A stretch of DNA of 64,000 bases from Hymenobacter daecheongensis DSM 21074 (GTDB lineage Bacteria; Bacteroidota; Bacteroidia; Cytophagales; Hymenobacteraceae), in NCBI RefSeq assembly GCF_900141805.1, contig NZ_FQYN01000010.1, positions 62,001 through 126,000 of the forward strand, read 5' to 3'. The notes under the pieces are model-generated. The model searched no databases. It saw nothing but the letters and a program-made list of their open reading frames with translations, and was not told where the DNA came from. Position 1 is the stretch's first letter, and each line of letters starts with the position of its first letter. The position numbers and the translations under genes are program-made. This document shows positions 9,896 through 55,637 of the stretch, in pieces.

Positions 9896-9928
9896 TTACT
9901 TTTACACTTCCCATCCCACCCACTTCCT

Positions 9929-11152
9929 ATGGCTGCTTCTACTGCTACGCTTACGCCTTCCTTCCTGTCCGACCGCATCAATGCCATGCAGGAATCCCAG
10001 ACCATTGCTATGGCCAAAAAGGCCCGGGAGCTGATGGCTAAGGGCATTGACGTTATCAACCTCAGCTTCGGCGAGCCGGACTTCGAAACCCCGCAGTACA
10101 TTCGGGAGGCGGCTAAGGTGGCAATGGATCAGGGCTTTACCAAATACACGCCCGTACCCGGCTACCTAGATCTGCGCCAGGCCATTGCCGATAAGCTGCT
10201 GCGCGAAAACCAGCTGGCCTACAAGCCCGAAAACATTGTAGTGAGCACGGGGGCCAAGCAGGCCCTGGCCAACGCGGTGATGAGCCTGATAAATGCCGGC
10301 GACGAGGTTATCGTGTTTGCGCCGTATTGGGTGAGCTATGAGGAAATGGTGCGGCTGGCCGAAGGCACCACCGTCACGCTGATGGGGGCGCTGGAAAATG
10401 ACTACAAAGTGACGGCCGCCGAGCTGGAAGCCGCCATCACGCCGCGCACCAAGCTCATCATGTACTCCTCGCCCTGCAACCCGACGGGCTCCGTGTTTTC
10501 GCGGGAGGAGCTGGCGGCTATTGCGGCCGTAGTGGCCCGCAACCCCCAGATTCATGTGCTGGCCGACGAGATTTACGAGTACATCAACTTCGTGGGCGAG
10601 CATGTGAGCCTGGCGCAGTTTGCCGAAATCAAGGATCAGGTTATCACCGTCAATGGCTTTTCGAAGGGCTACGCCATGACGGGCTGGCGCGTGGGCTACC
10701 TGGCCGCTCGCCCGGAAATTGCCGCCGCCTGCGAGAAAATGCAGAGCCAGATTACGTCCGGCACCTGCTCGGTGGCCCAGCGCGCGGCCCTGGCCGCGCT
10801 GCAGGGCGGCCGCACTTCCGCCGACGAGATGGTGGCCGCCTACCGCCGCCGCCGCGACTTGGTGCTGGCGCAGGTGCAGCAAATTCCGGGCTTCAAAACC
10901 CCCACGCCCAGCGGCGCTTTCTACATTTTCCCCGATGTCAGCGCCTATTTCGGCCGCCGCACGCCCGCGGGCGAAACCATCGGTAACGCCGGCGACCTGG
11001 CCCTGTACCTGCTGAACGAGGCCCACGTAGCCGCCGTGGACGGCGCGGCTTTCGGGGCCCCGAACTGCATCCGCTTCAGCACCGCCGCCGCCGATGAAAA
11101 GCTGCGCGAAGCCTTTGTGCGGATAAAGGCGAGCCTGGAAAAGCTGGGGTAG
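9929..11152 (+). CDS. class I PLP-dependent aminotransferase, aspartate type
   Basis: Transfers amino groups between aspartate (or an aromatic amino acid) and 2-oxoglutarate in the cytoplasm. Visible are the N-terminal GEPDFETP motif, the PYWVSYEE segment, the substrate/PLP residues in SSPCNPTGSVFS, the DEIYEYI helix, the PLP-binding lysine in NGFSKGYAMTGWRVGY, and the arginine near the C-terminus in NCIRFSTA. At 407 aa it has the usual length. No operon partner is evident. Confidence 0.93.
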   Translation: MAASTATLTPSFLSDRINAMQESQTIAMAKKARELMAKGIDVINLSFGEPDFETPQYIREAAKVAMDQGFTKYTPVPGYLDLRQAIADKLLRENQLAYKPENIVVSTGAKQALANAVMSLINAGDEVIVFAPYWVSYEEMVRLAEGTTVTLMGALENDYKVTAAELEAAITPRTKLIMYSSPCNPTGSVFSREELAAIAAVVARNPQIHVLADEIYEYINFVGEHVSLAQFAEIKDQVITVNGFSKGYAMTGWRVGYLAARPEIAAACEKMQSQITSGTCSVAQRAALAALQGGRTSADEMVAAYRRRRDLVLAQVQQIPGFKTPTPSGAFYIFPDVSAYFGRRTPAGETIGNAGDLALYLLNEAHVAAVDGAAFGAPNCIRFSTAAADEKLREAFVRIKASLEKLG

Positions 11153-25968: not shown

Positions 25969-26193
25969 ATGTATAACACGAACGACATACGCCAAAGAAT
26001 CAAGGGCGAGGCCCGGCGCGGCGACTGGCAAACGGTTGCTGACAAGACGCGCAAGGCACGTAAAACGGTGTACGATATAGTTGCGGGCCGTCGCAATAAT
26101 GACGCTGTGTTGGCAGCATTTGAGCAACTGCTGGATGAGCGGGCAGAACTCCTACACGGAGCAGCCGCACCAGCTGACGAGGCCGGCGAATGA
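25969..26193 (+). CDS. Ner-like small helix-turn-helix regulator
   Basis: 74 aa; the segment DWQTVADKTRKARKTVYDIV looks like a helix-turn-helix. As the first gene of the early operon, overlapping muA by 4 bp, its place matches Mu ner, which turns down early transcription. Start ATG 25969 lies after the promoter, whereas an apparent longer frame begins inside the promoter itself. Confidence 0.7.
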   Translation: MYNTNDIRQRIKGEARRGDWQTVADKTRKARKTVYDIVAGRRNNDAVLAAFEQLLDERAELLHGAAAPADEAGE

Positions 26194-28490
26194 TTCCTAA
26201 AGGCAACAAGCTTTGGCTTCGCCGCAGGGAAGTGATGGACTATGGGGTTCTTGAAACATCCATTGACCAAGGGCTTTACCGTAACCGTCGCGGTACGCGG
26301 GGCTGGAGCCATGTGTTCGACTCCATTGAAGGGTGTCTGATTGACTATGACACTATACCTGCCCGGACTATTAGGGAGTATGCTATTCCCTCCAAAGCGG
26401 AATTACTGGCTCAATACAAAGCCGAAACGCAAGAACTAAAGGCAGCGGAACTGGCCGTGGCCGGCTCCGCCCTCACGGCGCTGCACGCCCGGATGGTATG
26501 CCCGACCGATTACAACATCTTCTTTACCCGCGCCGGGCTGACCAGTACGGGCGAAAGCGTGGAGGCGAAAGCCACGCAGCTGACGGAGGCCGCGGGCTGG
26601 CTGCGGCTGCTGGCGAACCTGGAAACGCGGGCACAGCTGAAGTCGCTGGGCTTCGAGAAGAAAGACCAGGCCCGCGCCGCCGTGCTCGACCAGGTGCTAG
26701 ACCAGAAGCTGTATGGACTGCGGGTGAGCAACGTGCGGGTGCTGCAGGCCAAGGAGCTGGCCTTCGCCAAAGCCCTTCAGCTGTCGGTGGAGGACCAGGA
26801 AGCGGGCCTTTCGCAGCATGAACGGCAGCGAAACGCGCATGAACGGGCACTGCTGACGCTGGTTCCGGACCGTTATGGGCGGGATAATGCCCGCAAAATA
26901 GGCCGTAAACAGGTGGTAAACGGCACCGATACGCGCGTGCTGCTGGCTTCGGGGCAGGTAGATATGAGCGAATGGCACGCGAATACCATCGCGACGCTGT
27001 TCATGAACCCTGGTAGCGGCAACAAATTCGACCTGCGGGAGGTGTATCGGCGCTACAAGCAGCGCTGTGCGGCCACGGGCCGCGAGCCGATCTGCACGGA
27101 GTCGGGCATGAAGGCGTTTCTGCTGCGCAACGACGTGCGCCAGTTCACGGCCTGGGAGCGGGACGGCCACGCCAGCATTGAGAAGTACTTGCCCCACGTT
27201 CGGCGGGAGCGGCCTTCGTACTCGCTGTCGAAGGGTGGCTACGACGGCTTCTCCCTGGACTTCTACACCACGATGGATGGGGCGCGGGTGATGCTGACGA
27301 TGGTAGCCGTATTCGACTATCACTCCGAAGCCATCACGGGCTTCTCGGTGGGGCTGGTAGAAAACGGCTTTATGGTGCGGGAAATGTACCGCAACCACCT
27401 GAATCAGCTGGACGGCCGCAGCTTCATTGAGATTGAAAGTGACCGGTTTTCGGGGAACCTGGCCAAGGATACGCAGCAGATTTTCCGCCGCGCCTGTCAG
27501 ATCATCACGCAGCCCGCACCGAACGACCCACGGGGCAAGGCACCGAACCCAAAGGCCCGCTTTGTGGAGCGGCTGGGGCAGGAGCTGAACCGGCTGGCGC
27601 AGAACGTGGAGGGCTGGAAGGGCACCAACATCACGAGCATCGACCAGCAGCGCAAGGCGAACCCCGACTACGCGGGCACGGCCTCGCAGGGGTCGCTGGA
27701 GCTGGGCATTCGGCAGGTGTCGAAGCTGGTGGCGGTGTACAACCACGAGCAAGTGGAGAAATGGAACGGGCAAACCCGCTGGCAGCGCCTGCTGGCCGAC
27801 CTGAACCCGGAAGCGCCGGTGCTGGATGCGCTGACGCGGGCCACGCTGCTGAGCCAGCACACCGTGACGAGCGTGCGCCACGCGGCGGTGCGCATCACGG
27901 TAGGCAACAAAACCCACGAATACCCCTTCCCGACCTACGCCAAATATGCCCACAAGATGGGCAAAGGCCTGAAAGTGCGGGTGTATTACGACGAAACCAA
28001 CCTGGCTTCGGTGGATGTGTTCGGCTTCGCGGATGCCAAAGACACGGGCACCGACGTGCATCTGGCCACGCTGGGCAAAGGCCAGCGGGTGCAGATGGCC
28101 AAGACCGAACAGACCGACGGCGACCAGGCCGAGCTAGGCCGGCAGGACCGCCAGCGCGAAGCTATGCGCGAAGAGATGGACCGCAAGCAGCTGGAAAGCG
28201 AGGCCGTGGCCTACGAGCTGGAGGTGCCGGCCGGTATCGGGGTGAAGGCGCTGCGGGCGCTGGTGAAGGGGGCGCGGCTGACCAGCCCGGTGGTGGCGGA
28301 CTTCGACACCCGCTTCGGGCAGGTGCTGGCGGCCCCGGCGGCGGCGGCCCAGCTGGCCTACTACGATGACGCGCTGCTGCGCGACCAGGGCCACCGGGTG
28401 CCGGTGGTGGTGGACGCGCCGGCCCGGAAGACGACCAAAGCGCGGGAGCGATACGACAGCTACAAAGACAGCGGCATCGACTTCAGCTAA
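26190..28490 (+). CDS. MuA-type DDE transposase
   Basis: Cuts and joins the phage ends during lysogeny and replicative transposition. The catalytic core shows GFSLDFYTTMDG (Asp357), EIESDRFSGN (Asp418) and ARFVERLGQELN (Glu460 by position), in the spacing of MuA/IS481-type transposases. N-terminal 250 residues hold winged-helix end-binding regions; the C-terminal 150 residues are Ala/Arg-rich and end in a short basic tail, as expected for the MuB/ClpX contact region. Length 766 aa is longer than MuA (663). Confidence 0.93.
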   Translation: MIPKGNKLWLRRREVMDYGVLETSIDQGLYRNRRGTRGWSHVFDSIEGCLIDYDTIPARTIREYAIPSKAELLAQYKAETQELKAAELAVAGSALTALHARMVCPTDYNIFFTRAGLTSTGESVEAKATQLTEAAGWLRLLANLETRAQLKSLGFEKKDQARAAVLDQVLDQKLYGLRVSNVRVLQAKELAFAKALQLSVEDQEAGLSQHERQRNAHERALLTLVPDRYGRDNARKIGRKQVVNGTDTRVLLASGQVDMSEWHANTIATLFMNPGSGNKFDLREVYRRYKQRCAATGREPICTESGMKAFLLRNDVRQFTAWERDGHASIEKYLPHVRRERPSYSLSKGGYDGFSLDFYTTMDGARVMLTMVAVFDYHSEAITGFSVGLVENGFMVREMYRNHLNQLDGRSFIEIESDRFSGNLAKDTQQIFRRACQIITQPAPNDPRGKAPNPKARFVERLGQELNRLAQNVEGWKGTNITSIDQQRKANPDYAGTASQGSLELGIRQVSKLVAVYNHEQVEKWNGQTRWQRLLADLNPEAPVLDALTRATLLSQHTVTSVRHAAVRITVGNKTHEYPFPTYAKYAHKMGKGLKVRVYYDETNLASVDVFGFADAKDTGTDVHLATLGKGQRVQMAKTEQTDGDQAELGRQDRQREAMREEMDRKQLESEAVAYELEVPAGIGVKALRALVKGARLTSPVVADFDTRFGQVLAAPAAAAQLAYYDDALLRDQGHRVPVVVDAPARKTTKARERYDSYKDSGIDFS

Positions 28491-28555
28491 ACAAAAACCC
28501 GCCTCGGTGGCGACCAAGACGGGCTCAATTCAAAACCACTAACACTCACAAACCT

Positions 28556-29461
28556 ATGACTGAAGATCGGAAAGTGCAAATCGCACGGGGCCTGGTGAAG
28601 TACATCGAGGACCACAAGGACGCTGGCATGAGCCAGAACAAGGTGGCTACGGTCTGCGGCATGTCGGCCGCGACCATCTCCCACATCATCGCGGGCAAGT
28701 GGAACGCGGTGCCGGCTCAGGGCGGCACGCGCACTACTACCGTCACGGATGCCATCTTTTTGAAGATTGAGGCGGCCCTGGGGCTGACGGCGGACTTCTT
28801 CGAGACGGACAACTATGCGGCCATCTTCGGGGCCTGCATGGATGCCAAGGTTCGGAAGGAGTGGCGCATCATCGACGGGCTGACGGGGGCCGGCAAGTCC
28901 TTCGCCGTGGAGCGTTTTGCCCGCACGCAGCCACGCGAAACCTTCCTGATCCGGTGCAAAAACACCATGAACGCGAAGGAATTCATGCAGGCCATTGCCC
29001 GCGCCGTGGGGGCCTGCGAGGTGGGCACGCGCCACCGCATCTGCCAGAGCATTGCCGACCGGCTGCTGACCATGACGCACCCGCTGCTCATCATCGATGA
29101 GTCGGAAGCGCTGTTCAAGCGCACCAGCGAAGGCGGCTTCGGGGCCATAAAGGACATCTGCGATGAGGTGAAAGGCCGGGTGGGCATCGTGCTGGTGGGG
29201 GCCAACGACTTCCTGGAGCAGCTGCGCCTGCGGGCCATGAACCTGCGCAGCTGCTTCCCGCAGCTGGTAAGCCGCTTCGCCACGGCTCCGGTAGCGCTGG
29301 AGGTGCTAAGCCGGGCCGACGTGGAGCTGATTGCGCCAGCCTTCGGTGTGCAGGCGAAGAAGGAAATGGACCGGCTGTATGACGGCGCGGCCAACTTCCG
29401 GGAGCTGTTCGACGCGCTTCGTCGGCAACAGGCCGACCAGTACCTACTCAAAGCGGCTTAG
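28556..29461 (+). CDS. MuB-type target-choosing AAA ATPase
   Basis: Binds DNA with ATP and brings target DNA to the transposase. N-terminal helix-turn-helix (MSQNKVATVCGMSAATISHI), Walker A GLTGAGKS at 108-115, Walker B LLIIDESE at 177-184, sensor-like VLVGANDFL. The 301-aa length and place directly after muA fit MuB. It is separated from muA by 65 bp containing a weak hairpin. Confidence 0.92.
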   Translation: MTEDRKVQIARGLVKYIEDHKDAGMSQNKVATVCGMSAATISHIIAGKWNAVPAQGGTRTTTVTDAIFLKIEAALGLTADFFETDNYAAIFGACMDAKVRKEWRIIDGLTGAGKSFAVERFARTQPRETFLIRCKNTMNAKEFMQAIARAVGACEVGTRHRICQSIADRLLTMTHPLLIIDESEALFKRTSEGGFGAIKDICDEVKGRVGIVLVGANDFLEQLRLRAMNLRSCFPQLVSRFATAPVALEVLSRADVELIAPAFGVQAKKEMDRLYDGAANFRELFDALRRQQADQYLLKAA

Positions 29462-29465
29462 GGCG

Positions 29466-29669
29466 ATGGAACAGACACCGCAAGGATGGCTGTGGCCGCA
29501 TAAAGCTGCCGTTCGCCACTACTTCAACGGGGCCAACGCCAATGCCTTGTGTGGGCGGGTGAAGCAATCGAGGCTGCCCGGCTCCAAGCTCCGAGACAAT
29601 CACCATCGGAGCATGCACAACTGCAAAATCTGTCAAGAAAAACGCGAACAGCTTCAGCAAAATGGGTAA
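29466..29669 (+). CDS. small putative zinc-binding phage protein
   Basis: 67 aa. The pattern HYFNGANANALCG ... CKICQEKR gives one His and three Cys spaced like a small zinc ribbon. The same HYF-x5-ALCG-...-CxxC layout recurs in the 3' phage gene at 56417. Starts 4 bp after muB stop; overlaps the next ATPase by 8 bp, so it is translated within the early operon. Role unknown. Confidence 0.7.
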   Translation: MEQTPQGWLWPHKAAVRHYFNGANANALCGRVKQSRLPGSKLRDNHHRSMHNCKICQEKREQLQQNG

Positions 29670-30345
29670 ATCTATCAGCATACACGAGCTGGATAAGAAG
29701 CATTATCCGCTCATGCCGCTCTCAGAAGAGTGGCAGCAATACATCGGGCATCCGGAAATTGGGTTTCGGATGCTGGTCTGGGGCGAGTCGGGGCATGGCA
29801 AAACGACCTTCGTAGTGAAGCTCTGCAAGGAGCTGGCGCAGCATGGCAAGGTGTACTACAACTCCATCGAGCAGGGCGAGGGGGCTTCCATTCAGAAGGT
29901 GATGCGCCTGTGCAACGTGACGGCCGACTGCAAACCGGGCTCCTTCATGCTGGGCGACCGGGACTCTTATCAGGAGATGTGGGATAAGCTGGCCAAGCCC
30001 CGCCAGCGCGTCCGGTTCGTGGTCATCGACTCGCTGCAGTACATCAGCCTGACCAAGGACCAGTACAAGCAGCTGACCGAAACCTTCCCCCGCATTGCGC
30101 TCATCATCATCAGCTGGTCGGAAGGCTCGGGGCAGCCGAAAGGCGACACGGCCAAGAGCATCCGCTACATGGTGGATATCAAAACCCAGGTGAAGAAGGG
30201 CGTGGCGCGGTCGGATAGTCGCTTTGGGGCGACGGTGCCCTACCAGGTGATTCCGTGGGAAGAGAAGGAACGGGCACCGGCGGCCAGGGGCCAGAAGCTG
30301 CTGGACGTGGGGCAGCAACAGTTAGCGCTGGTAGAAAATGGCTAA
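29662..30345 (+). CDS. second phage P-loop ATPase, RecA/AAA_25-like
   Basis: 227 aa, Walker A GESGHGKTT at 41-49 and Walker B FVVIDSLQ around 119-126, followed by an LTETFP / IIISWSEG strand that resembles the RecA-like fold of RadA and DnaB-type ATPases. No DNA-binding motif is evident. Mu itself lacks such a gene, so it is an addition to the early block; it may act in replication, recombination or defence evasion (inference). Confidence 0.75.
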   Translation: MGKSISIHELDKKHYPLMPLSEEWQQYIGHPEIGFRMLVWGESGHGKTTFVVKLCKELAQHGKVYYNSIEQGEGASIQKVMRLCNVTADCKPGSFMLGDRDSYQEMWDKLAKPRQRVRFVVIDSLQYISLTKDQYKQLTETFPRIALIIISWSEGSGQPKGDTAKSIRYMVDIKTQVKKGVARSDSRFGATVPYQVIPWEEKERAPAARGQKLLDVGQQQLALVENG

Positions 30346-30700
30346 GACCCAGCTGCTAAAAAATTACATGGTGAAGCGGCTCGACCACGGCCGCATCCGC
30401 TTTATCCTCCGACCTGATGAGCACCTGGCACTAAAAGCCTTGCTGGAAGAAGTAGCGGACGATATGCTGGATGGTCTGGATGAGTTCGCAGACGCGGTAT
30501 CTGCCTGGCTTAGGGCGCTAGCGCAGGAAATGCTTACCCGCCGCTACCTGCTGATGACGCTGGCAGACAAGGAAAACACCTTCGTGCTGTCGAAAAGCGA
30601 AGCCCTCGGGGTGCTTTCCATCCTCTGGTCGGAACCACTGCTGGAAACCCGCCCGATCCTGCAAATTCTATTTGGAGAACTCCACCAACTGCTAAGCTGA
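30338..30700 (+). CDS. hypothetical phage early protein
   Basis: Not recognised. 120 aa, leucine-rich and helical throughout, with no Cys motif or signal. Overlaps the ATPase by 8 bp and touches the next gene at 30700, so it belongs to the tightly packed early operon. Confidence 0.6.
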   Translation: MAKTQLLKNYMVKRLDHGRIRFILRPDEHLALKALLEEVADDMLDGLDEFADAVSAWLRALAQEMLTRRYLLMTLADKENTFVLSKSEALGVLSILWSEPLLETRPILQILFGELHQLLS

Positions 30701-31128
30701 TGAACACACGCCTGGAAATAGAGCTGCTCACGCTGGAGGTGTGCGAGCGGCTGCACCTGACGCTGGCCCAGGTGATGGAAGTGCAGGTGGACCTGGCCAG
30801 CGACTACCTGAAAGCGCTGTGCCGGGGCGGGTGGCTGGCCGGTCCGGAAGAGGCCCAGCTGCTGGCGATGCTGCCGGAATTCTGGGCGTGGTGGCGGCAG
30901 CGATGGGCCAACCGCGACCGAAACATGCTGGCCGGCCTGAACCCGCTGGCGGTGCTGGAATGGCAGCAGCAGGGCCGGCCGATGCAGGCGCTGTACTTCG
31001 AGCTGTGTCGGCACCTGGCTTACGCGGGCGGTGCCGCTTACCCAAACGATGTGATAATGGCCGCTTTCGAGGCCGAAAAACGCAGACAACAACTCACTTT
31101 TTCAACCCTTAAAGACCTGTTTAACTGA
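30700..31128 (+). CDS. hypothetical phage early protein
   Basis: Not recognised. 142 aa, helical, rich in Leu, Trp and Gln (FWAWWRQRWANRDRN). Starts on the last base of the previous stop and its own stop overlaps the gam start, so translation is likely coupled. No domain found. Confidence 0.6.
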   Translation: MNTRLEIELLTLEVCERLHLTLAQVMEVQVDLASDYLKALCRGGWLAGPEEAQLLAMLPEFWAWWRQRWANRDRNMLAGLNPLAVLEWQQQGRPMQALYFELCRHLAYAGGAAYPNDVIMAAFEAEKRRQQLTFSTLKDLFN

Positions 31129-31625
31129 TGAAAAACGCAACCACAACCCCCGCAACCCGGCCTACGAAGGTGGCCAAAACGCCCCGCGCTGAGGCCGAAG
31201 CCCTGATGACGCGCTACGCGGCCCTGAGCAAGGCATCAGCCGACATTCTGGAGGAAGCCAAGAAGGCCGCCGCGCCCAAGCTGGATGAGATGGCCGACCT
31301 CAAAGAGAAGCTCCAGGCGTGGAGCGAGAAGCACCCCAACGAGTTCGGGGGCCACAAGATGCTGAGCGTGGAGGCCGGCGTGTTCGGCTTCAAAGCCGGG
31401 GTGAAGTCGGTGGCTTTCCCGGACCCGGAAACCGCTCCGAAGGACATTCAGGCCAAGTACCTGAAGCTGGTGCGGGCCGAGCTGCCCGCCGCCATCATCG
31501 AGAAGGTGGACTCCGGGGCGGTGGTGAAAGCCTGGGGCCTGGTGCCGGCCCTGTGCAAGGGGCTGGAAAAGCTGGGTATCAGCATTAAGCAGCCCGATAA
31601 TTTCATCGTCACAGCTAAGAAGTAG
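31128..31625 (+). CDS. Gam-like host-nuclease inhibitor
   Basis: Mu Gam, a Ku-like end-binding protein, shields linear phage DNA from RecBCD-type exonucleases. Here the 165-aa protein has the conserved middle (KLQAWSEKHPNEFGG, VEAGVFGFKAG) and C-terminal helix with KAWGLVPALCKGLEKLGI. The first 20 residues are Thr/Pro/Lys-rich. Place in the early block agrees with Mu. Confidence 0.8.
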   Translation: MKNATTTPATRPTKVAKTPRAEAEALMTRYAALSKASADILEEAKKAAAPKLDEMADLKEKLQAWSEKHPNEFGGHKMLSVEAGVFGFKAGVKSVAFPDPETAPKDIQAKYLKLVRAELPAAIIEKVDSGAVVKAWGLVPALCKGLEKLGISIKQPDNFIVTAKK

Positions 31626-31629
31626 ACCG

Positions 31630-31998
31630 ATGGCCAGCATCTTCGATGTAACCCCGCTGACAGAAACGGGGATGGAACTTGCTCACCGTGCCGTGATGCA
31701 CGATGTATGGCTTGAGCGGGTACGGCAGATAGAAAAGTTTGGCTGGCAAAATCGCCCCCCTTTCGAGTGGAAGATTATCCTGGACGAAGAAGTGGGTGAA
31801 GTATCCCACGAGGTCTGTGAGGTCTATTTTCAAGGGGGTGAGTTCAGCGAAAAATATCGGAAGGAAATGGTAGAGGTGGCGGCGGTTGCTCTGGCCGCCA
31901 TCCAGAATTACGACTACCGCAAGGCAAGGCTGGATGCCGAAATCCAGGCCGCGAAGGAACAGCTAAGAGGCTCCAGCGGCCGGGTGCTGCGCTCTTAG
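31630..31998 (+). CDS. MazG-like nucleotide pyrophosphohydrolase
   Basis: 122 aa. ERVRQIEKFGW, WKIILDEEVGEVSHEV and RKEMVEVAAVALAAIQNY show the helical EExxE + ExxD-type metal site of phage MazG/DUF550 proteins. Likely hydrolyses (d)NTPs or alarmones in the infected cell. Ends directly before the first tRNA-like hairpin. Confidence 0.75.
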   Translation: MASIFDVTPLTETGMELAHRAVMHDVWLERVRQIEKFGWQNRPPFEWKIILDEEVGEVSHEVCEVYFQGGEFSEKYRKEMVEVAAVALAAIQNYDYRKARLDAEIQAAKEQLRGSSGRVLRS

Positions 31999-32004
31999 TT
32001 CCCC

Positions 32005-32048
32005 AGCCCGGATGGCATACAGCGTGGTTCGAGTCCACGCCGGGCGCT
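32005..32048 (+). ncRNA. tRNA-like minihelix, copy 1
   Basis: A perfect T-arm (CGTGG 32023-32027, loop TTCGAGT, CCACG 32035-32039) is stacked on a 6-bp acceptor-like stem (GCCCGG 32006-32011 with CCGGGC 32040-32045). The 5' strand and the T-arm are joined by 11 nt (ATGGCATACAG) where a tRNA has D and anticodon arms. No CCA is encoded. It begins a few bases after the MazG-like stop. See copy 2 at 32887. Confidence 0.7.
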
Positions 32049-32075
32049 ATTTCTTTTCACCCTAACCCTTCTGCT

Positions 32076-32183
32076 ATGCTCAAACTCCTGGCCCTGGCGG
32101 TGCTGCTCCGGCTGCACGCCCACCACCCCCGCGAAGCCGAACCCCCGGCCCCCCGGCCGGCCCTGGTGGCCTGTACGGAATAA
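32076..32183 (+). CDS. small ORF, 35 aa
   Basis: Starts 28 nt after the first tRNA-like hairpin. Hydrophobic N-terminus (MLKLLALAVLLRLHAHH) then a Pro/Arg-rich tail with one Cys. No homology recognised; it may be a tiny membrane or secreted protein, or not translated. Confidence 0.35.
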   Translation: MLKLLALAVLLRLHAHHPREAEPPAPRPALVACTE

Positions 32184-32216
32184 GCTTTTCACCTTTTACT
32201 TACCCTTCACACACTC

Positions 32217-32420
32217 ATGGAAAACGCAAATAAGAAGCCCCAGGGCACCGCCTTCTTTGGCAATCTGCCGGCCGTGCCGGTCCTCATTCTCATCATCTGG
32301 CTGGCAATGACGGTGGTGTATTATACCATTGGCCTCTCGCACGATGTGAGCCTGCCCATTGTGCTGGCCACGGTGGTGTGGTTCATTGTGTGGCTGGTTC
32401 GGGCGGTGCGTCGTGCATAG
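32217..32420 (+). CDS. small two-helix membrane protein
   Basis: 67 aa with hydrophobic segments at about 18-38 (VPVLILIIWLAMTVVYY) and 45-63 (LPIVLATVVWFIVWLV), short charged ends. Overlaps the next gene by 8 bp. Could be an early inner-membrane phage protein; not clearly a holin since the lysis genes are at 45 kb. Confidence 0.6.
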   Translation: MENANKKPQGTAFFGNLPAVPVLILIIWLAMTVVYYTIGLSHDVSLPIVLATVVWFIVWLVRAVRRA

Positions 32421-32880
32421 TTCGATAGTGCTGTGGGCGGCGGCGCTGGTATCCATCGGGGCCGCCGACCTCTTCGCCCACCGGGATGAGCTGACGGCCC
32501 GGCGCTTCCGGGAGCTAAGCCCCGCGACGGTAGCGGGGGAGCTGGACCGGAGCCGCAACCGGCGCTGGCACCGGCTGGGGGCGCAGCAGCGCCTGGTGAT
32601 GGCGGGCGTGCTGGCCTCTTCGGTGAGCCTGGCGCTGGGAAGCCAGCGGGCGTTCTGGGTGCTGCTGCTGCTGTGCGGGGCGCTCATCACGCTGTGCTTC
32701 GATATCAGCTTCAATCTGCGCTTCGGGCAGCGCTGGTGGTACGCCGGCACCACGGCCCTCACCGATGAGCTGCTGAACAAGCTGGGCCTGAAACACCAGC
32801 TGAATGCCGGCAAGCTGGCAGCGGCGGTGAAGCTGGCGGCGGTGCTGGCCGGCGTGGCCGGCTGGATTTTCTGGCTTTAG
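32413..32880 (+). CDS. hypothetical membrane protein
   Basis: 155 aa from a GTG at 32413 that overlaps the previous stop. Hydrophobic segments near 5-20, 80-105 and 135-155. An ATG-like earlier start at TTG 32359 lies inside the previous gene in another frame and is unlikely. The stop TAG abuts the second tRNA-like hairpin. Not recognised. Confidence 0.6.
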   Translation: MHSSIVLWAAALVSIGAADLFAHRDELTARRFRELSPATVAGELDRSRNRRWHRLGAQQRLVMAGVLASSVSLALGSQRAFWVLLLLCGALITLCFDISFNLRFGQRWWYAGTTALTDELLNKLGLKHQLNAGKLAAAVKLAAVLAGVAGWIFWL

Positions 32881-32886
32881 TACCTC

Positions 32887-32931
32887 AGCCCGGACGGCAT
32901 ACAGACGTGGTTCGAGTCCACGCCGGGCGCT
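32887..32931 (+). ncRNA. tRNA-like minihelix, copy 2
   Basis: Second copy, 45 nt. GCCCGG (32888-32893) pairs with CCGGGC (32923-32928); T-arm CGTGG (32906-32910), loop TTCGAGT, CCACG (32918-32922). It differs from copy 1 by one substitution (ACGG for ATGG) and one inserted A, both in the unpaired bridge. The stems are unchanged, so structure rather than simple sequence is kept. Like copy 1 it abuts an upstream stop and precedes a phage gene. Confidence 0.7.
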
Positions 32932-32945
32932 ATTTACCTACCTCA

Positions 32946-34007
32946 ATGGGATACGATCAACTCACATTCACCTTCGCGGAAGGCTACGAGCTGCCTGTAG
33001 TGGCTGCGCTACCCACCGGCCCCAGTGAGCCGGATGATGTGCTGAGCTACGACCGGTATGTGGTCTTTTTCAGTGGAGGAAAAGACAGTGTGGCCAGTGC
33101 TCTGGAGCTATTGGAACGTGGTGTGCCAGCCCATAAGATTGAGTTGTGGCATCACATTGTGGACGGCCGTGAGGGTTCTACCCTCATGGATTGGCCTTGC
33201 ACCAACGATTACTGCCGGGCTTTTGCGGAAGCCTTTGGTATGCACATCTACTTCAGTTGGAAGCACGGCGGGTTTGAGCGGGAGATGTTGCGGCACAACA
33301 GCCGCACGGCTCCTATCAGCTTCGAGGTTCCCACCTCAGCGGGTACTGAGATAAGCACTGTCGGCGGCACGGGTGGTAAGGAATCAACCCGACGCCTATT
33401 TCCCCAGGTGTCAGCCGATTTGTCGGTGCGTTGGTGTAGTTCCTACACTAAGATTCATGTAGCTCAAGCGGCGCTTCGTAATCAAGCCCGCTTTGAACAA
33501 GCTCGAACGCTGCTGGTGAGTGGCGAACGTGCAGAGGAAAGCCCAAATCGTGCCCGGTATACAGCTTTTGCCCCAGATGCCACCGACGCTAGGAACAGCC
33601 CACGGTTAGCGCGGCACATGGACCGCTGGATGCCGATACATCAGTGGAGCGAGGTGCAGGTATGGGACCTGATGCGCAAGTACAGTGTCAACCCTCACCC
33701 TGCATACCGGCTGGGGTGGTCCCGCTGCTCTTGTGCAGGCTGCATTTTCAACGGAGCCGATGAGTTTGCTACGCTTCGCCGCATCAATGCCCAGCAGTTC
33801 GGGCAGATGACAACCCACGAAACAGACTTTGGGCGCACCATCAAGCGTGCTACCACCCTCGATACGCTGGCAGACCAAGGCAAGCCCTTCCCCGTGAAGG
33901 CATCTGATGTAGCAGCAGCCCTCAGTGAAACCTGGTACGAGCCCATCATTTTGTCGGATTGGGAGCTGCCAGTTGGTGCTTTCGCCAAAGGAAACGGACC
34001 TAGTTAA
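32946..34007 (+). CDS. PAPS reductase-like PP-loop enzyme
   Basis: 353 aa. The PP-loop FFSGGKDSVA (43-48) activates a substrate with ATP, as in PAPS reductases, DndC and tRNA thiolases. A Cys group SRCSCAGCIF near residue 260 could hold a metal or iron-sulfur cluster. ATG 32946 lies 14 nt after the second tRNA-like hairpin; reading on from 32907 would pass through the hairpin. Such enzymes occur in many phages, mostly with unknown target. No Dnd or Q-type partners are present. Confidence 0.85.
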   Translation: MGYDQLTFTFAEGYELPVVAALPTGPSEPDDVLSYDRYVVFFSGGKDSVASALELLERGVPAHKIELWHHIVDGREGSTLMDWPCTNDYCRAFAEAFGMHIYFSWKHGGFEREMLRHNSRTAPISFEVPTSAGTEISTVGGTGGKESTRRLFPQVSADLSVRWCSSYTKIHVAQAALRNQARFEQARTLLVSGERAEESPNRARYTAFAPDATDARNSPRLARHMDRWMPIHQWSEVQVWDLMRKYSVNPHPAYRLGWSRCSCAGCIFNGADEFATLRRINAQQFGQMTTHETDFGRTIKRATTLDTLADQGKPFPVKASDVAAALSETWYEPIILSDWELPVGAFAKGNGPS

Positions 34008-50978: not shown

Positions 50979-51684
50979 AATCACCTACCGCATCGATAGC
51001 CTCTACCGCACGGCTTTCCCGGACCTGGCCTCGAAGGCGCTGACCAAGCTCGATGGCGTGCGCGACCTAGCGCTGAGCAAGGCAGAGGCCGCCCTGGGCA
51101 TGGGCTTCCAGGTGCCCACGGAGCAGCAACGCACTTCGCCCGCGCTGGACTTCGCCGGCATCGGGAGTGCCGTCATCATCCAGGGCGACGAAACCAGCTA
51201 CCTGGGTACGCCCATCTTCCAGCCCATCCGCTTCCTGGCCGGTAATTATCAGCTGCTGGGCACCGGGGCGCGGCAGGGGCAGGTGGTGCTGGCCGACTAC
51301 GATGAGTGGCGGCTGCCGGCCACGGCCACGGCCGAATTCCGTCGGGCGAAGATTCTGACCAAGAGCAGCCCCAACGCGGCCTTCGGCTCTGCCAAGGAGC
51401 TATGGGCCTTCGAGGACTGGGACATCACCATTCGCGGCATCATCCTGCACGAGAAGCCTAACGTGTTTCCCGCCGGTGAGCTGCGGGAGATGCTGCGCTG
51501 GGAACAGCTGGTGGATAGCATCGCCGTGGGCGGGCAGATGTTCGAGCTGCTGGGCATCAAGCGCCTGGTAGTGGAAAGCCTGAACATCGGCAAGGTGGCC
51601 GGAATGCCCAACGTGGTGCCCTTTCAAATGCAGTGCTGCTCCGATGAGCCGCTGGAAGTATCCATCCTGACTAATCAATCCTAA
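50971..51684 (+). CDS. DUF6046-like phage tail protein
   Basis: 237 aa; overlaps the tape measure gene by 8 bp. The features DETSYLGTPIFQPIRF, WAFEDWDITIRGIIL and KPNVFPAGELREMLRW match small tail proteins common in Bacteroidota prophages. Placed where Mu has gp43 (tail/DNA circulation protein). Exact role unknown. Confidence 0.65.
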   Translation: MAEITYRIDSLYRTAFPDLASKALTKLDGVRDLALSKAEAALGMGFQVPTEQQRTSPALDFAGIGSAVIIQGDETSYLGTPIFQPIRFLAGNYQLLGTGARQGQVVLADYDEWRLPATATAEFRRAKILTKSSPNAAFGSAKELWAFEDWDITIRGIILHEKPNVFPAGELREMLRWEQLVDSIAVGGQMFELLGIKRLVVESLNIGKVAGMPNVVPFQMQCCSDEPLEVSILTNQS

Positions 51685-54239: not shown

Positions 54240-55637
54240 ATGGGCATTCTCGCAAACGCGCTTCGGCAGTTTATCACCGACAACATCATTTCTGGCCGCA
54301 AGAACACGGCGGCCAACTACCGCACTGTGTTTGGCAACGCGGCCGATGCCATTGCCATCCTCGAAGGCCGGGCCAGGGGCTCCAAAATCCTGCACGGCTA
54401 CGGCCCGCCGGACGTGGAAACCGGCGAAAACGACGACGCTTACTTCGACCTGGCCAGCAAGACGCTGGAGTTGAAGGTGGACGGCGAGTGGACGCTGATG
54501 CTCTCCTTGCTGGGCTCGCAGGGCAAAAGCGCCTACGAATCGTGGAAGAGCGCCGGCAACACGGGCTCGGAGGCCGACTTCGTGCGCAGCCTGCGGGGCC
54601 AGAGCGGCAGCAGCGCCTACGAGCTGTGGCGGGCGGCCGGTAACCAGGGCAGCGTAGCCGACTACTTGCTCAGTCTGAAGGGCCAGAACGGCACCAGCGC
54701 CTACCAGCAGTGGAAGGATGCCGGCAATGAGGGCTCCACGAAGGATTTTCTGGCCACGATGGAGGGCCAGAATGGCAAGGACGGCAATACGATGCGGTGG
54801 GAGTCCTACGTGCCCGAAAACGAGCCGGGCCAGGACGGGGATGCCTGGTTCCATACCATCAGCGCCACCAAAATCGCCATCTACCGCTACCGGGCCGGCG
54901 AGGAAGTGACTTCGGGGGGCATCGTGAGCAATAGCAGCCCCTGGCAGCTGCGCTTCACTTCGCCCGATGCCGGAGTGAGCAGCGGCGGGCCGGTGCCGGC
55001 GGCCGGCGTGAGCAGCTTCAACAGCCGCTCGGGCGTAGTGCTGCTGGAGGCGGAGGACCTGCTGGCCCATTTAGAGGCGGGGGCCAACGTCACCATCACC
55101 AAAAACCTAAGCAGCGGGAAGCTGACGGTTGCCTGCACGGCTGCTGGTGGCAATGGCGCTGGCACGGGCGATATGACCAAGGCGCAGTACGACCCCAACA
55201 ACGATGGCAAGTTCGGGGCCGATATCATTGCCCAGGATGCTACGCATCGGTTTGTTACCGATAGCCAGATGCAGGGATGGGACACGAAAATAGATGCCGC
55301 CGGGCTGGAAGTAGTCCGCACCACGCTGGCCAGCAGTACGGAGAAATCCGGCAACTATTCCCTGGGCCTGAGTGATGCGGGCAACGTGGTGCCGGTGAAT
55401 TCGGCCACGGCCGTGTCGGTGGTTGTGCCCCTGAATAGCAGCGTGCCCTTCCCCCTGGGCACGCTGATTACGATTCTGCAAACCGGAAACGCCCAGGTAA
55501 CTATTGCCCCGGCCAATGGCACAGTGCTGATCCGGCAGGCGGATAACCAGTACAAAACAGCCAAGAAGTACGCCAGCGTCACCCTGTTTAAGATCGGGAT
55601 GAATGAGTGGGTATTGAACGGCTACACCTTCGTGTAA
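54240..55637 (+). CDS. tail fibre protein with three 28-residue repeats
   Basis: 465 aa. After a helical base (1-60), three repeats SAYESWKSAGNTGSEADF, SAYELWRAAGNQGSVADYLL, SAYQQWKDAGNEGSTKDFL occupy about residues 97-180, each ending G-x-x-G-x-S/N-G. A beta-rich middle and a C-terminal VTLFKIGMNEWVLNGYTFV tip follow. The tip probably binds the host. Confidence 0.78.
   Translation: MGILANALRQFITDNIISGRKNTAANYRTVFGNAADAIAILEGRARGSKILHGYGPPDVETGENDDAYFDLASKTLELKVDGEWTLMLSLLGSQGKSAYESWKSAGNTGSEADFVRSLRGQSGSSAYELWRAAGNQGSVADYLLSLKGQNGTSAYQQWKDAGNEGSTKDFLATMEGQNGKDGNTMRWESYVPENEPGQDGDAWFHTISATKIAIYRYRAGEEVTSGGIVSNSSPWQLRFTSPDAGVSSGGPVPAAGVSSFNSRSGVVLLEAEDLLAHLEAGANVTITKNLSSGKLTVACTAAGGNGAGTGDMTKAQYDPNNDGKFGADIIAQDATHRFVTDSQMQGWDTKIDAAGLEVVRTTLASSTEKSGNYSLGLSDAGNVVPVNSATAVSVVVPLNSSVPFPLGTLITILQTGNAQVTIAPANGTVLIRQADNQYKTAKKYASVTLFKIGMNEWVLNGYTFV

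Follow-up and report, generated by a model that had tools for sequence, protein, structure and literature searches.

Two short elements on the forward strand, at 32006-32045 and 32888-32928 of the window (the whole stretch of 64,000 nucleotides analyzed here), are, by sequence comparison, members of a large conserved RNA family of miniature tRNA look-alikes. We call them minis. In their consensus, a bridge of 11-12 nt that contains GG joins the acceptor stem (5-6 bp) to a T-arm whose loop has TTCGA, and R-C follows the acceptor. We count 288 distinct candidates, whose bridges are conserved and whose stems covary. This kind of molecule, a tRNA-like structure, is already known; the family appears to be new. 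With moderate confidence, we propose that the minis are cis-acting operon punctuation, cut by the host RNase P.

Both elements are real and lie where an earlier note on this DNA had placed them, each core 7 nt past a TAG stop. The first copy (32006..32045, plus strand) follows the stop at 31996-31998, and the next ATG is 30 nt downstream, in a 35-aa ORF at 32076. Its acceptor pairs GCCCG (32006-32010) with CGGGC (32041-32045). The 11-nt bridge GATGGCATACA (32011..32021) is supported by comparison, in which bridge position 14 covaries with position 60 of the loop, and 9 with 55. It carries GG at 32014-32015, which resembles G18/G19 of tRNA in a numbering by analogy. Likewise, A32019 and C32020 have U32034 and G32033 of the T-loop as predicted partners. 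The T-arm (32022..32040) presents a 6-bp stem, GCGTGG (32022-32027) with CCACGC (32035-32040), closed by the loop TTCGAGT (32028-32034). A G-C similar to R73 C74 lies just 3' of the acceptor, at 32046..32047. The 11 pairs can be divided as 5+6 or, as previously described, 6+5; both splits are equally valid.

The second copy (32888..32928, plus strand) follows the stop at 32878-32880, 17 nt ahead of the ATG of the gene at 32946. It consists of the acceptor GCCCGG/CCGGGC, the 12-nt bridge ACGGCATACAGA (32894-32905) and the T-stem CGTGG/CCACG, and it also ends with a G-C similar to R73 C74 (32929..32930). The cores differ at two places of the bridge only, by a T to C change and by an extra A, which agrees with the first description. 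The stems are identical, and the copies share 93% identity over 58 bases.

Folding energy was rejected as evidence, with unexceptional z values against shuffles (-0.69 for copy 1 and -0.75 for copy 2). What sets the copies apart from chance is comparison with other sequences. A covariance model that includes both copies (R1) scores them at 64.4 and 58.3 bits; no other match in 35 kb of the window exceeds 10.7. The model R2, which includes neither copy, gives 59.9 bits (E 1.2e-11) and 50.7 bits (E 2e-9) versus 13.9 for the next best of the window. R2 was built from GC-rich contigs and named actinophages only, with hand-picked rows; for IMG/VR contigs in general, the hosts are presumed. ARAGORN called no tRNA at either window element. 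It called a tRNA-Gly at 54961-55036, which is probably false because it is absent from the 41 RF00005 matches of the genome. In Rfam, the copies match mascRNA/menRNA (RF01684) weakly, at 22.7 and 19.9 bits (E 0.71 and 3.8), below the gathering score of 42.5.

The minis were also compared with intrinsic terminators. The region 31500-33200 has five terminator-like patterns, where shuffles give 1.5 expected, and none lies on a mini. Two of them, at 31976-31990 and 32844-32865, are just upstream of the stops that precede the minis. By eye, a T run after the element is rare across the family; the tail of copy 1 is T-rich.

As judged from its genes, the region is a Mu-like early operon. On the plus strand, 26190..31625 encodes a transposase (26190), a transposition protein (28556), an ATPase (29662) and a Gam-like protein (31128). 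The gene ending 7 nt before copy 1 (31630..31998, +) belongs to phrog_2831, with function not assigned. After this copy, the 35-aa ORF (32076..32183, +) resembles by eye the short ORF directly after a mini of a related prophage (locus L065 of genome G065), with no tblastn match at 1e-3. A 67-aa ORF between the copies (32217..32420, +) has membrane character by eye and no PHROG match. The ORF with its stop 7 nt before copy 2 (32413..32880, +, GTG start assumed) has a homologue in L065 with 47% identity. The gene after copy 2 (32946..34007, +) is PAPS-reductase-like with a PP-loop (phrog_424, E 2.2e-28; PF01507, E 1.6e-9). An IMG/VR contig of 32.7 kb, IMGVR_UViG_2582581872_000001 (L040/L062), contains the same prophage with both minis, and its transposase and PP-loop proteins are 100% identical to those of the window. 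The host genome has 104 matches to the T9SS tail (TIGR04183), which fits Bacteroidota; among 14 controls only Bacteroides ihuae and Deinobacterium chartae match.

The earlier note had pointed to the PP-loop gene, whose class includes tRNA thiolases. A link of the minis with this gene is not supported. The gene at 32946 matches phage PAPS reductase families, and the related prophage has minis and no PP-loop homologue in the stretch compared (tblastn, E 1e-3). Moreover, at E 1 or better, no mini was found in the 26.5 kb of five loci where a PP-loop homologue is present.

The prophage in G065 is the closest relative. It is Mu-like, its transposase is 72% identical, and it shares several genes with the window phage in a different order. 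It has two minis, one of class C between Gam and a membrane-type gene, and one of class G ahead of a short ORF (the classes are defined below). The class G mini, at the matching place, keeps the acceptor GCCCG/CGGGC and has a different T-stem that is still paired. Conservation of the paired bases had been set as a check. Pairing persists, though the letters change, both in this Mu-like relative and in many phages. Other minis occur in L063, L064, L095 and L137, where Mu-type A and B genes are present and the hosts are presumed Bacteroidota. In L095, the mini ends 19 nt ahead of the called transposase start, and in L137 it overlaps this start. R2 gives 39.6-53.3 bits to five more minis (L065, L095, L063, L064, L137); the class C mini of L065 has only 18.4.

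Past Gam, the two prophages differ in gene order up to where the early operon ends, and minis are found at the joints that changed. This would suit minis that are DNA-level boundaries, whose short homologies at the joints help phages to swap cassettes. The two window copies could recombine, because their stems are identical and they share 93% identity. However, elsewhere the stems differ within one genome and vary by compensation. Such variation leaves less DNA homology and preserves the RNA structure, so we consider gene shuffling very improbable as an explanation. The two window copies alone would fit a mobile short repeat, whose near-identical copies are scattered without regard to strand or gene; the family as a whole has different stems and sense placement only.

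When IMG/VR was scanned with the motif, three contigs beyond the window's own phage matched, with the same core and different stems. A looser scan found at least 120 stretches in at least 80 loci, and some of these matches are, by eye, parts of ordinary tRNAs. Structural parsing of 84 loci resulted in 82 distinct candidates, of which at least one (L117:2967-3007) looks stray. The bridge and loop define three classes. Class G has the bridge GGCANACA and the loop TTCGAGT, class C the bridge GGTCGNAG and the loop TTCGACT, and class T the bridge GGTTTT.G and the loop TTCGATT. The class scans recovered 77 stretches for C and 35 for T. Under a filter floor of 11 bp, the stacks of the 288 candidates measure 11 bp (162), 12 bp (97), 13 bp (28) and 14 bp (1).

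The minis appear, from their distribution, to be a feature of phages and prophages, and they occur in actinophages and in Mu-like phages. Across species genomes, the strict class G pattern was present in 11 contigs. Nine of them fit the model too: Proteiniphilum, Tenacibaculum (two), Flavobacteriales, Bacteroidetes HGW, Microbacterium, Jiangella, Amycolatopsis and an uncultured bacterium. The other two, L203 and L206, have no model match. Within the host genus, two of 120 genomes match. In the phylum sample, with 15 candidates scored per genome and strict filters, the one match among 395 genomes was the window's own. Matches in Klebsiella, Salmonella and Achromobacter were left out, some of which are annotated tRNAs. 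The copy number reaches 12 minis in one 14.5-kb locus (L076).

Comparison of the aligned sequences indicates that the fold is real and that most stem pairs vary by compensation. Alignment A1 consists of 60 of 67 elements plus both window copies. In its 62 sequences, 99.4% of the cells are paired and both sides change in 9 of 11 pairs; the covariation score is 0.802, versus 0.170 for shuffled and at most 0.185 for slid alignments. Alignment A2 takes the best 150 of 158 matches from 63 chosen sources, mostly of class G and fitted to the model structure. Its 142 distinct rows and 13 pairs (2 tertiary) have 99.3% of cells paired versus 69.4% when shuffled, with a covariation score of 0.740 versus 0.160. 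The sequences in these alignments are related, so the counts are not independent events. For the other classes, hand-chosen alignments (A3, 50 of 63 class C; A4, 27 of 33 class T) are 98.7% and 97.0% paired. We quote the full sets because the rows dropped from A3 and A4 were near-duplicates and worse-pairing ones. All 63 four-base-spacer matches of class C are 97.6% paired versus 62.1% shuffled, with every pair in 57 rows. All 33 matches of class T are 95.0% paired versus 56.9% shuffled, with every pair in 27 rows.

Chance copies of host tRNA genes with internal deletions could also leave such look-alikes, and the host tRNA-Leu(CAA) begins with the same 11 letters as copy 1 (from 32006). Nevertheless, other host tRNAs align better with copy 1, and the 288 distinct candidates have bridges that are conserved and stems that covary. 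This origin is contradicted by the covariation and by the placement in arrays, and we give it practically no credence.

The comparison shows a fold in which the acceptor and T-arm stack, mostly over 11-12 bp, and the bridge folds back on the T-loop. As in tRNA (RF00005), a TTC-R-A loop is stacked on the acceptor stem. The anticodon arm and four-way junction of RF00005 are absent, and the 11-12 nt bridge is present instead. The elbow contacts shown by comparison are those of the bridge GG with 55-56, and of bridge 14-15 with loop 60-59. In the 142 rows, bridge 14 and loop 60 are AU in 110, GC in 17, CG in 5, UA in 4, wobble in 3, other in 2 and a gap in 1. This pair is Watson-Crick in 125 of 131 unique cores, and the best of 5000 shuffles reached 102. 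Bridge 15 and loop 59 are C-G in 139 of 142 rows and, therefore, show little covariation. The bridge GG is nearly invariant. In tRNA, G18 touches psi55 at the elbow. Bridge 9 and loop 55 are G-U in 126 and A-G in 4 of the 131 unique cores, with no mixtures and one gap, which is the pattern that a contact of this kind would predict.

The bridge/loop coupling rests on class G rows and non-seed candidates (143 of 288). The scan seeds of classes C and T were not used for it, because both parts are in the search pattern. In class C, the letters matching 14-15/59-60 are A-G with C-U, which is fixed by the search pattern; among the non-seed TTCGACT candidates, 6 of 14 end in AG. Unlike class G, class T (A4; L212, L218, L194) has no simple base pairing between bridge and loop. 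In the Gordonia phage VanLee, some gap elements with a longer bridge have, by eye, a reduced D-arm, GCTC-YGGT-GAGC. For the family, the pairing of bridge 14 with loop 60 in all four Watson-Crick forms indicates a tRNA-like elbow without D-stem or anticodon arm.

Comparison among several phages shows that most gaps of the early arrays hold one mini just past the stop codon. We used the deposited annotation, since the first gene caller was rejected (of 139 elements, it placed 66 in antisense ORFs, 31 in sense ORFs and 42 between ORFs). In Send513, Verabelle, MrMiyagi and Joe, 33 of 38 model matches lie in annotated gaps (random, 11-13%), and 37 have the direction of both neighbours. This count includes matches down to E 0.03; two weaker ones in L314 (E 0.17 and 0.40) were left out. 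The other five overlap annotated genes, some of them perhaps misannotated. Besides, in six actinophage arrays, 59 of 72 gaps of at least 60 nt have a mini in sense and none in antisense, with 0.06% for letter shuffles. The gaps with a mini are 11/11 in Send513, 11/13 in Indlulamithi, 7/10 in Konstantine, 12/13 in VanLee, 9/14 in MrMiyagi and 9/11 in Verabelle. This test used the T-loop and pairing with no bridge motif, in array spans that were set after the elements were seen. At least one missed VanLee gap (9902-10076) holds an element by eye.

The Send513 model matches lie between about 38.6 and 46 kb, with a single one further on, at 61.3 kb, and the first 38.3 kb, with the structural genes, has no model match. 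Downstream of its array span, none of the nine gaps of at least 60 nt has a mini (complete gene list). The outside-array rows of L314 (2/13), L193, L317 and L316 were left out, since they included non-adjacent genes or too few.

The spacing within the gaps is regular. In the four phages, 29 of 38 model matches lie 6-15 nt past the upstream stop, and the next annotated start is 33-58 nt away in 33 of 38. A second hairpin follows the mini in actinophages (102 actino-like elements, mean z -1.67), and in 91 of them it starts at most 6 nt away. In 17 AT-rich or Bacteroidota-like elements, as grouped by us, the mean z is -0.03 and the hairpin is absent in most. This spacing and the strong hairpin would suit uncut structural insulators, which stay in the mRNA as a barrier and block exonucleases, ribosome read-on or reinitiation, or pause the RNA polymerase between genes. 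They are the main rival of RNase P punctuation, although we consider them unlikely. A plain hairpin would suffice for an insulator, and the kept elbow contacts, G1-C72, R73 and C74 would be left unexplained.

Punctuation by RNase P would account for these bases. A processing mark is favored because the minis are placed only in sense and at gene joints, present an acceptor/T stack of 11-13 bp, and keep G1-C72, R73 and C74. RNase P is the probable enzyme since these positions are kept while most acceptor positions drift. In 131 unique cores, G1 is present in 119, C72 in 119, R73 in 127 and C74 in 125. Acceptor positions 2-4 vary, and position 5 is G in 107. Class C has G1 in 44, R73 in 49 and C74 in 57 of 63, and class T has G1 in 20, R73 in 29 and C74 in 25 of 33. 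The available parts of PMC4919913 and PMC11143913 describe an RNase P that holds the tRNA at the elbow like a clamp and takes its measure along the T/acceptor stack, while its P RNA pairs with the 3' RCC of the tRNA; the ruler is 12 bp (PMC11143913). These modes of recognition, together with the kept positions, point to RNase P. The minis likewise combine a T-loop with an acceptor/T stack near 12 bp (11-14, mostly 11-12; filter floor 11). They keep R73 C74 and almost never encode the CCA end of RF00005. C75 is rare (8/131 cores, 4/63 class C, 6/33 class T), so the 3' RCC contact with the P RNA would be incomplete.

In the proposed mechanism, the host RNase P would dock on the elbow of the mini, measure along the stack, and cut between position -1, often A, and G1. 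The cuts would split the polycistronic early mRNA into gene-sized messages. Each message would start with a folded mini-tRNA, which may shield its 5' end and in actinophages is followed by the second hairpin. Since so few minis encode CCA, RNase Z could make another cut after position 73. Position -1 is A in 80 of the 131 unique cores, though most loci are GC-rich, possibly a cleavage-site preference. Some observations, besides the incomplete RCC contact, go against this reading. Stacks of 11 bp are frequent (162/288), and G1 and R73 are laxer in classes C and T. The cut would leave the 3' end of the upstream message bare. Finally, the window phage has two copies only, with identical stems, and most AT-rich or Bacteroidota-like loci are without the second hairpin.

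The earlier note had suggested either processing marks or decoys for tRNA-acting host enzymes. The RNase P-type mark fits best, with the cleavage as a prediction, and the decoy is not favored. As trans decoys or sensors, released mini-tRNAs would bind RNase P, RNase Z, the CCA-adding enzyme, pseudouridine synthase or a tRNA-cutting defence, and so protect the phage. The T-loop and elbow are recognized by several tRNA enzymes (PMC4919913, in its available part), and the high copy number of L076 would suit this role. However, a decoy has no need to be in cis, in sense and one per gene joint, and without an anticodon the minis would be no bait for anticodon nucleases. We consider decoys improbable. 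A broader proposal combines these ideas. The minis would be a new RNA class and, among natural tRNA mimics whose tertiary elbow is complete, the smallest. Very different phages of Actinomycetota and Bacteroidota would use them as a portable processing module that releases the mRNAs of an early operon one by one. Once excised, CCA-tailed and T-loop-modified, they would act in trans on the host tRNA machinery. We see it as a long shot.

In mitochondria, tRNAs lie between the genes of a long transcript and are cut out by RNase P. The minis are alike as tRNA-shaped structures between genes of a long transcript, with a predicted RNase P cut. However, the mitochondrial tRNAs work as such, and the phage minis are anticodon-less minihelices that cannot decode. 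In phage T7, the host RNase III cuts the early operon between genes at hairpins. The likeness is a phage early operon with a host RNase acting between genes, which for the minis is a proposal; the T7 sites are RNase III hairpins, whereas the minis have the tRNA elbow fold with 11-12 bp. The mascRNA/menRNA, the tRNA-like RNA matched weakly by both copies, differ from the minis in that they serve the 3' processing of lncRNAs.

The available part of PMC11143913 presents AT1, an RNA of acceptor plus T-arm, as an RNase P model substrate. It has the same two stacked stems as the minis, but it was combined from tRNA-Phe parts, and the phage minis carry a bridge that is conserved and forms pairs with the T-loop. 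The same part lists polycistronic mRNAs, T4 gene 32 mRNA and the phage C4 RNA among the non-tRNA substrates. These are mRNA or phage RNA, and the minis are candidate substrates too; as described there, the former form no repeated sequence family, whereas the minis are repeated at gene joints. Cluster A stoperators are repeated mainly in intergenic regions and in one orientation relative to transcription, as are the minis, but they are asymmetric DNA sites of 13 bp that bind the repressor (PMC3029335, in part). That part mentions stoperators and tRNA genes and not the minis. In the open-access literature, which was the scope of the search, we found no description of the minis, and many deposited records list no feature at them. 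Since an anticodon arm is part of what tRNA finders look for, the minis probably escaped notice.

If the proposal is true, DNA phages have an operon-wide version of mitochondrial tRNA punctuation. The minis would provide natural minimal elbow RNAs for studies of RNase P recognition, give the transcript maps of M. smegmatis, Streptomyces and Gordonia phages exact testable cut sites, and offer engineering a portable RNA-cutting module.

At the gathering score, Rfam 15 found in the array loci L194, L188, L317 and L316 only GOLLD, elsewhere in L194. This GOLLD RNA (RF02032, 180 bits; L194:13206-13666) corresponds to about 51205-51665 of Mycobacterium phage Send513. It sits in a 1.1-kb gap of a phage that also has a mini array. 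In nine array loci, only one ARAGORN call overlaps a mini, a tRNA-Val of VanLee (L316:4245-4335), which is probably a false tRNA built on the T-arm of the mini. Some deposited genes or starts also overlap minis: L194:4039-4200, 4633 and 23297 (Send513 gp54, gp56 and gp79), L315:22593-22709 (Joe gp78), L186:5917-6063 (Pitbull gp39) and L187:2995-3837 (Journey13 gp74). Misannotation is possible in these cases, and some annotated gene starts may need correcting.
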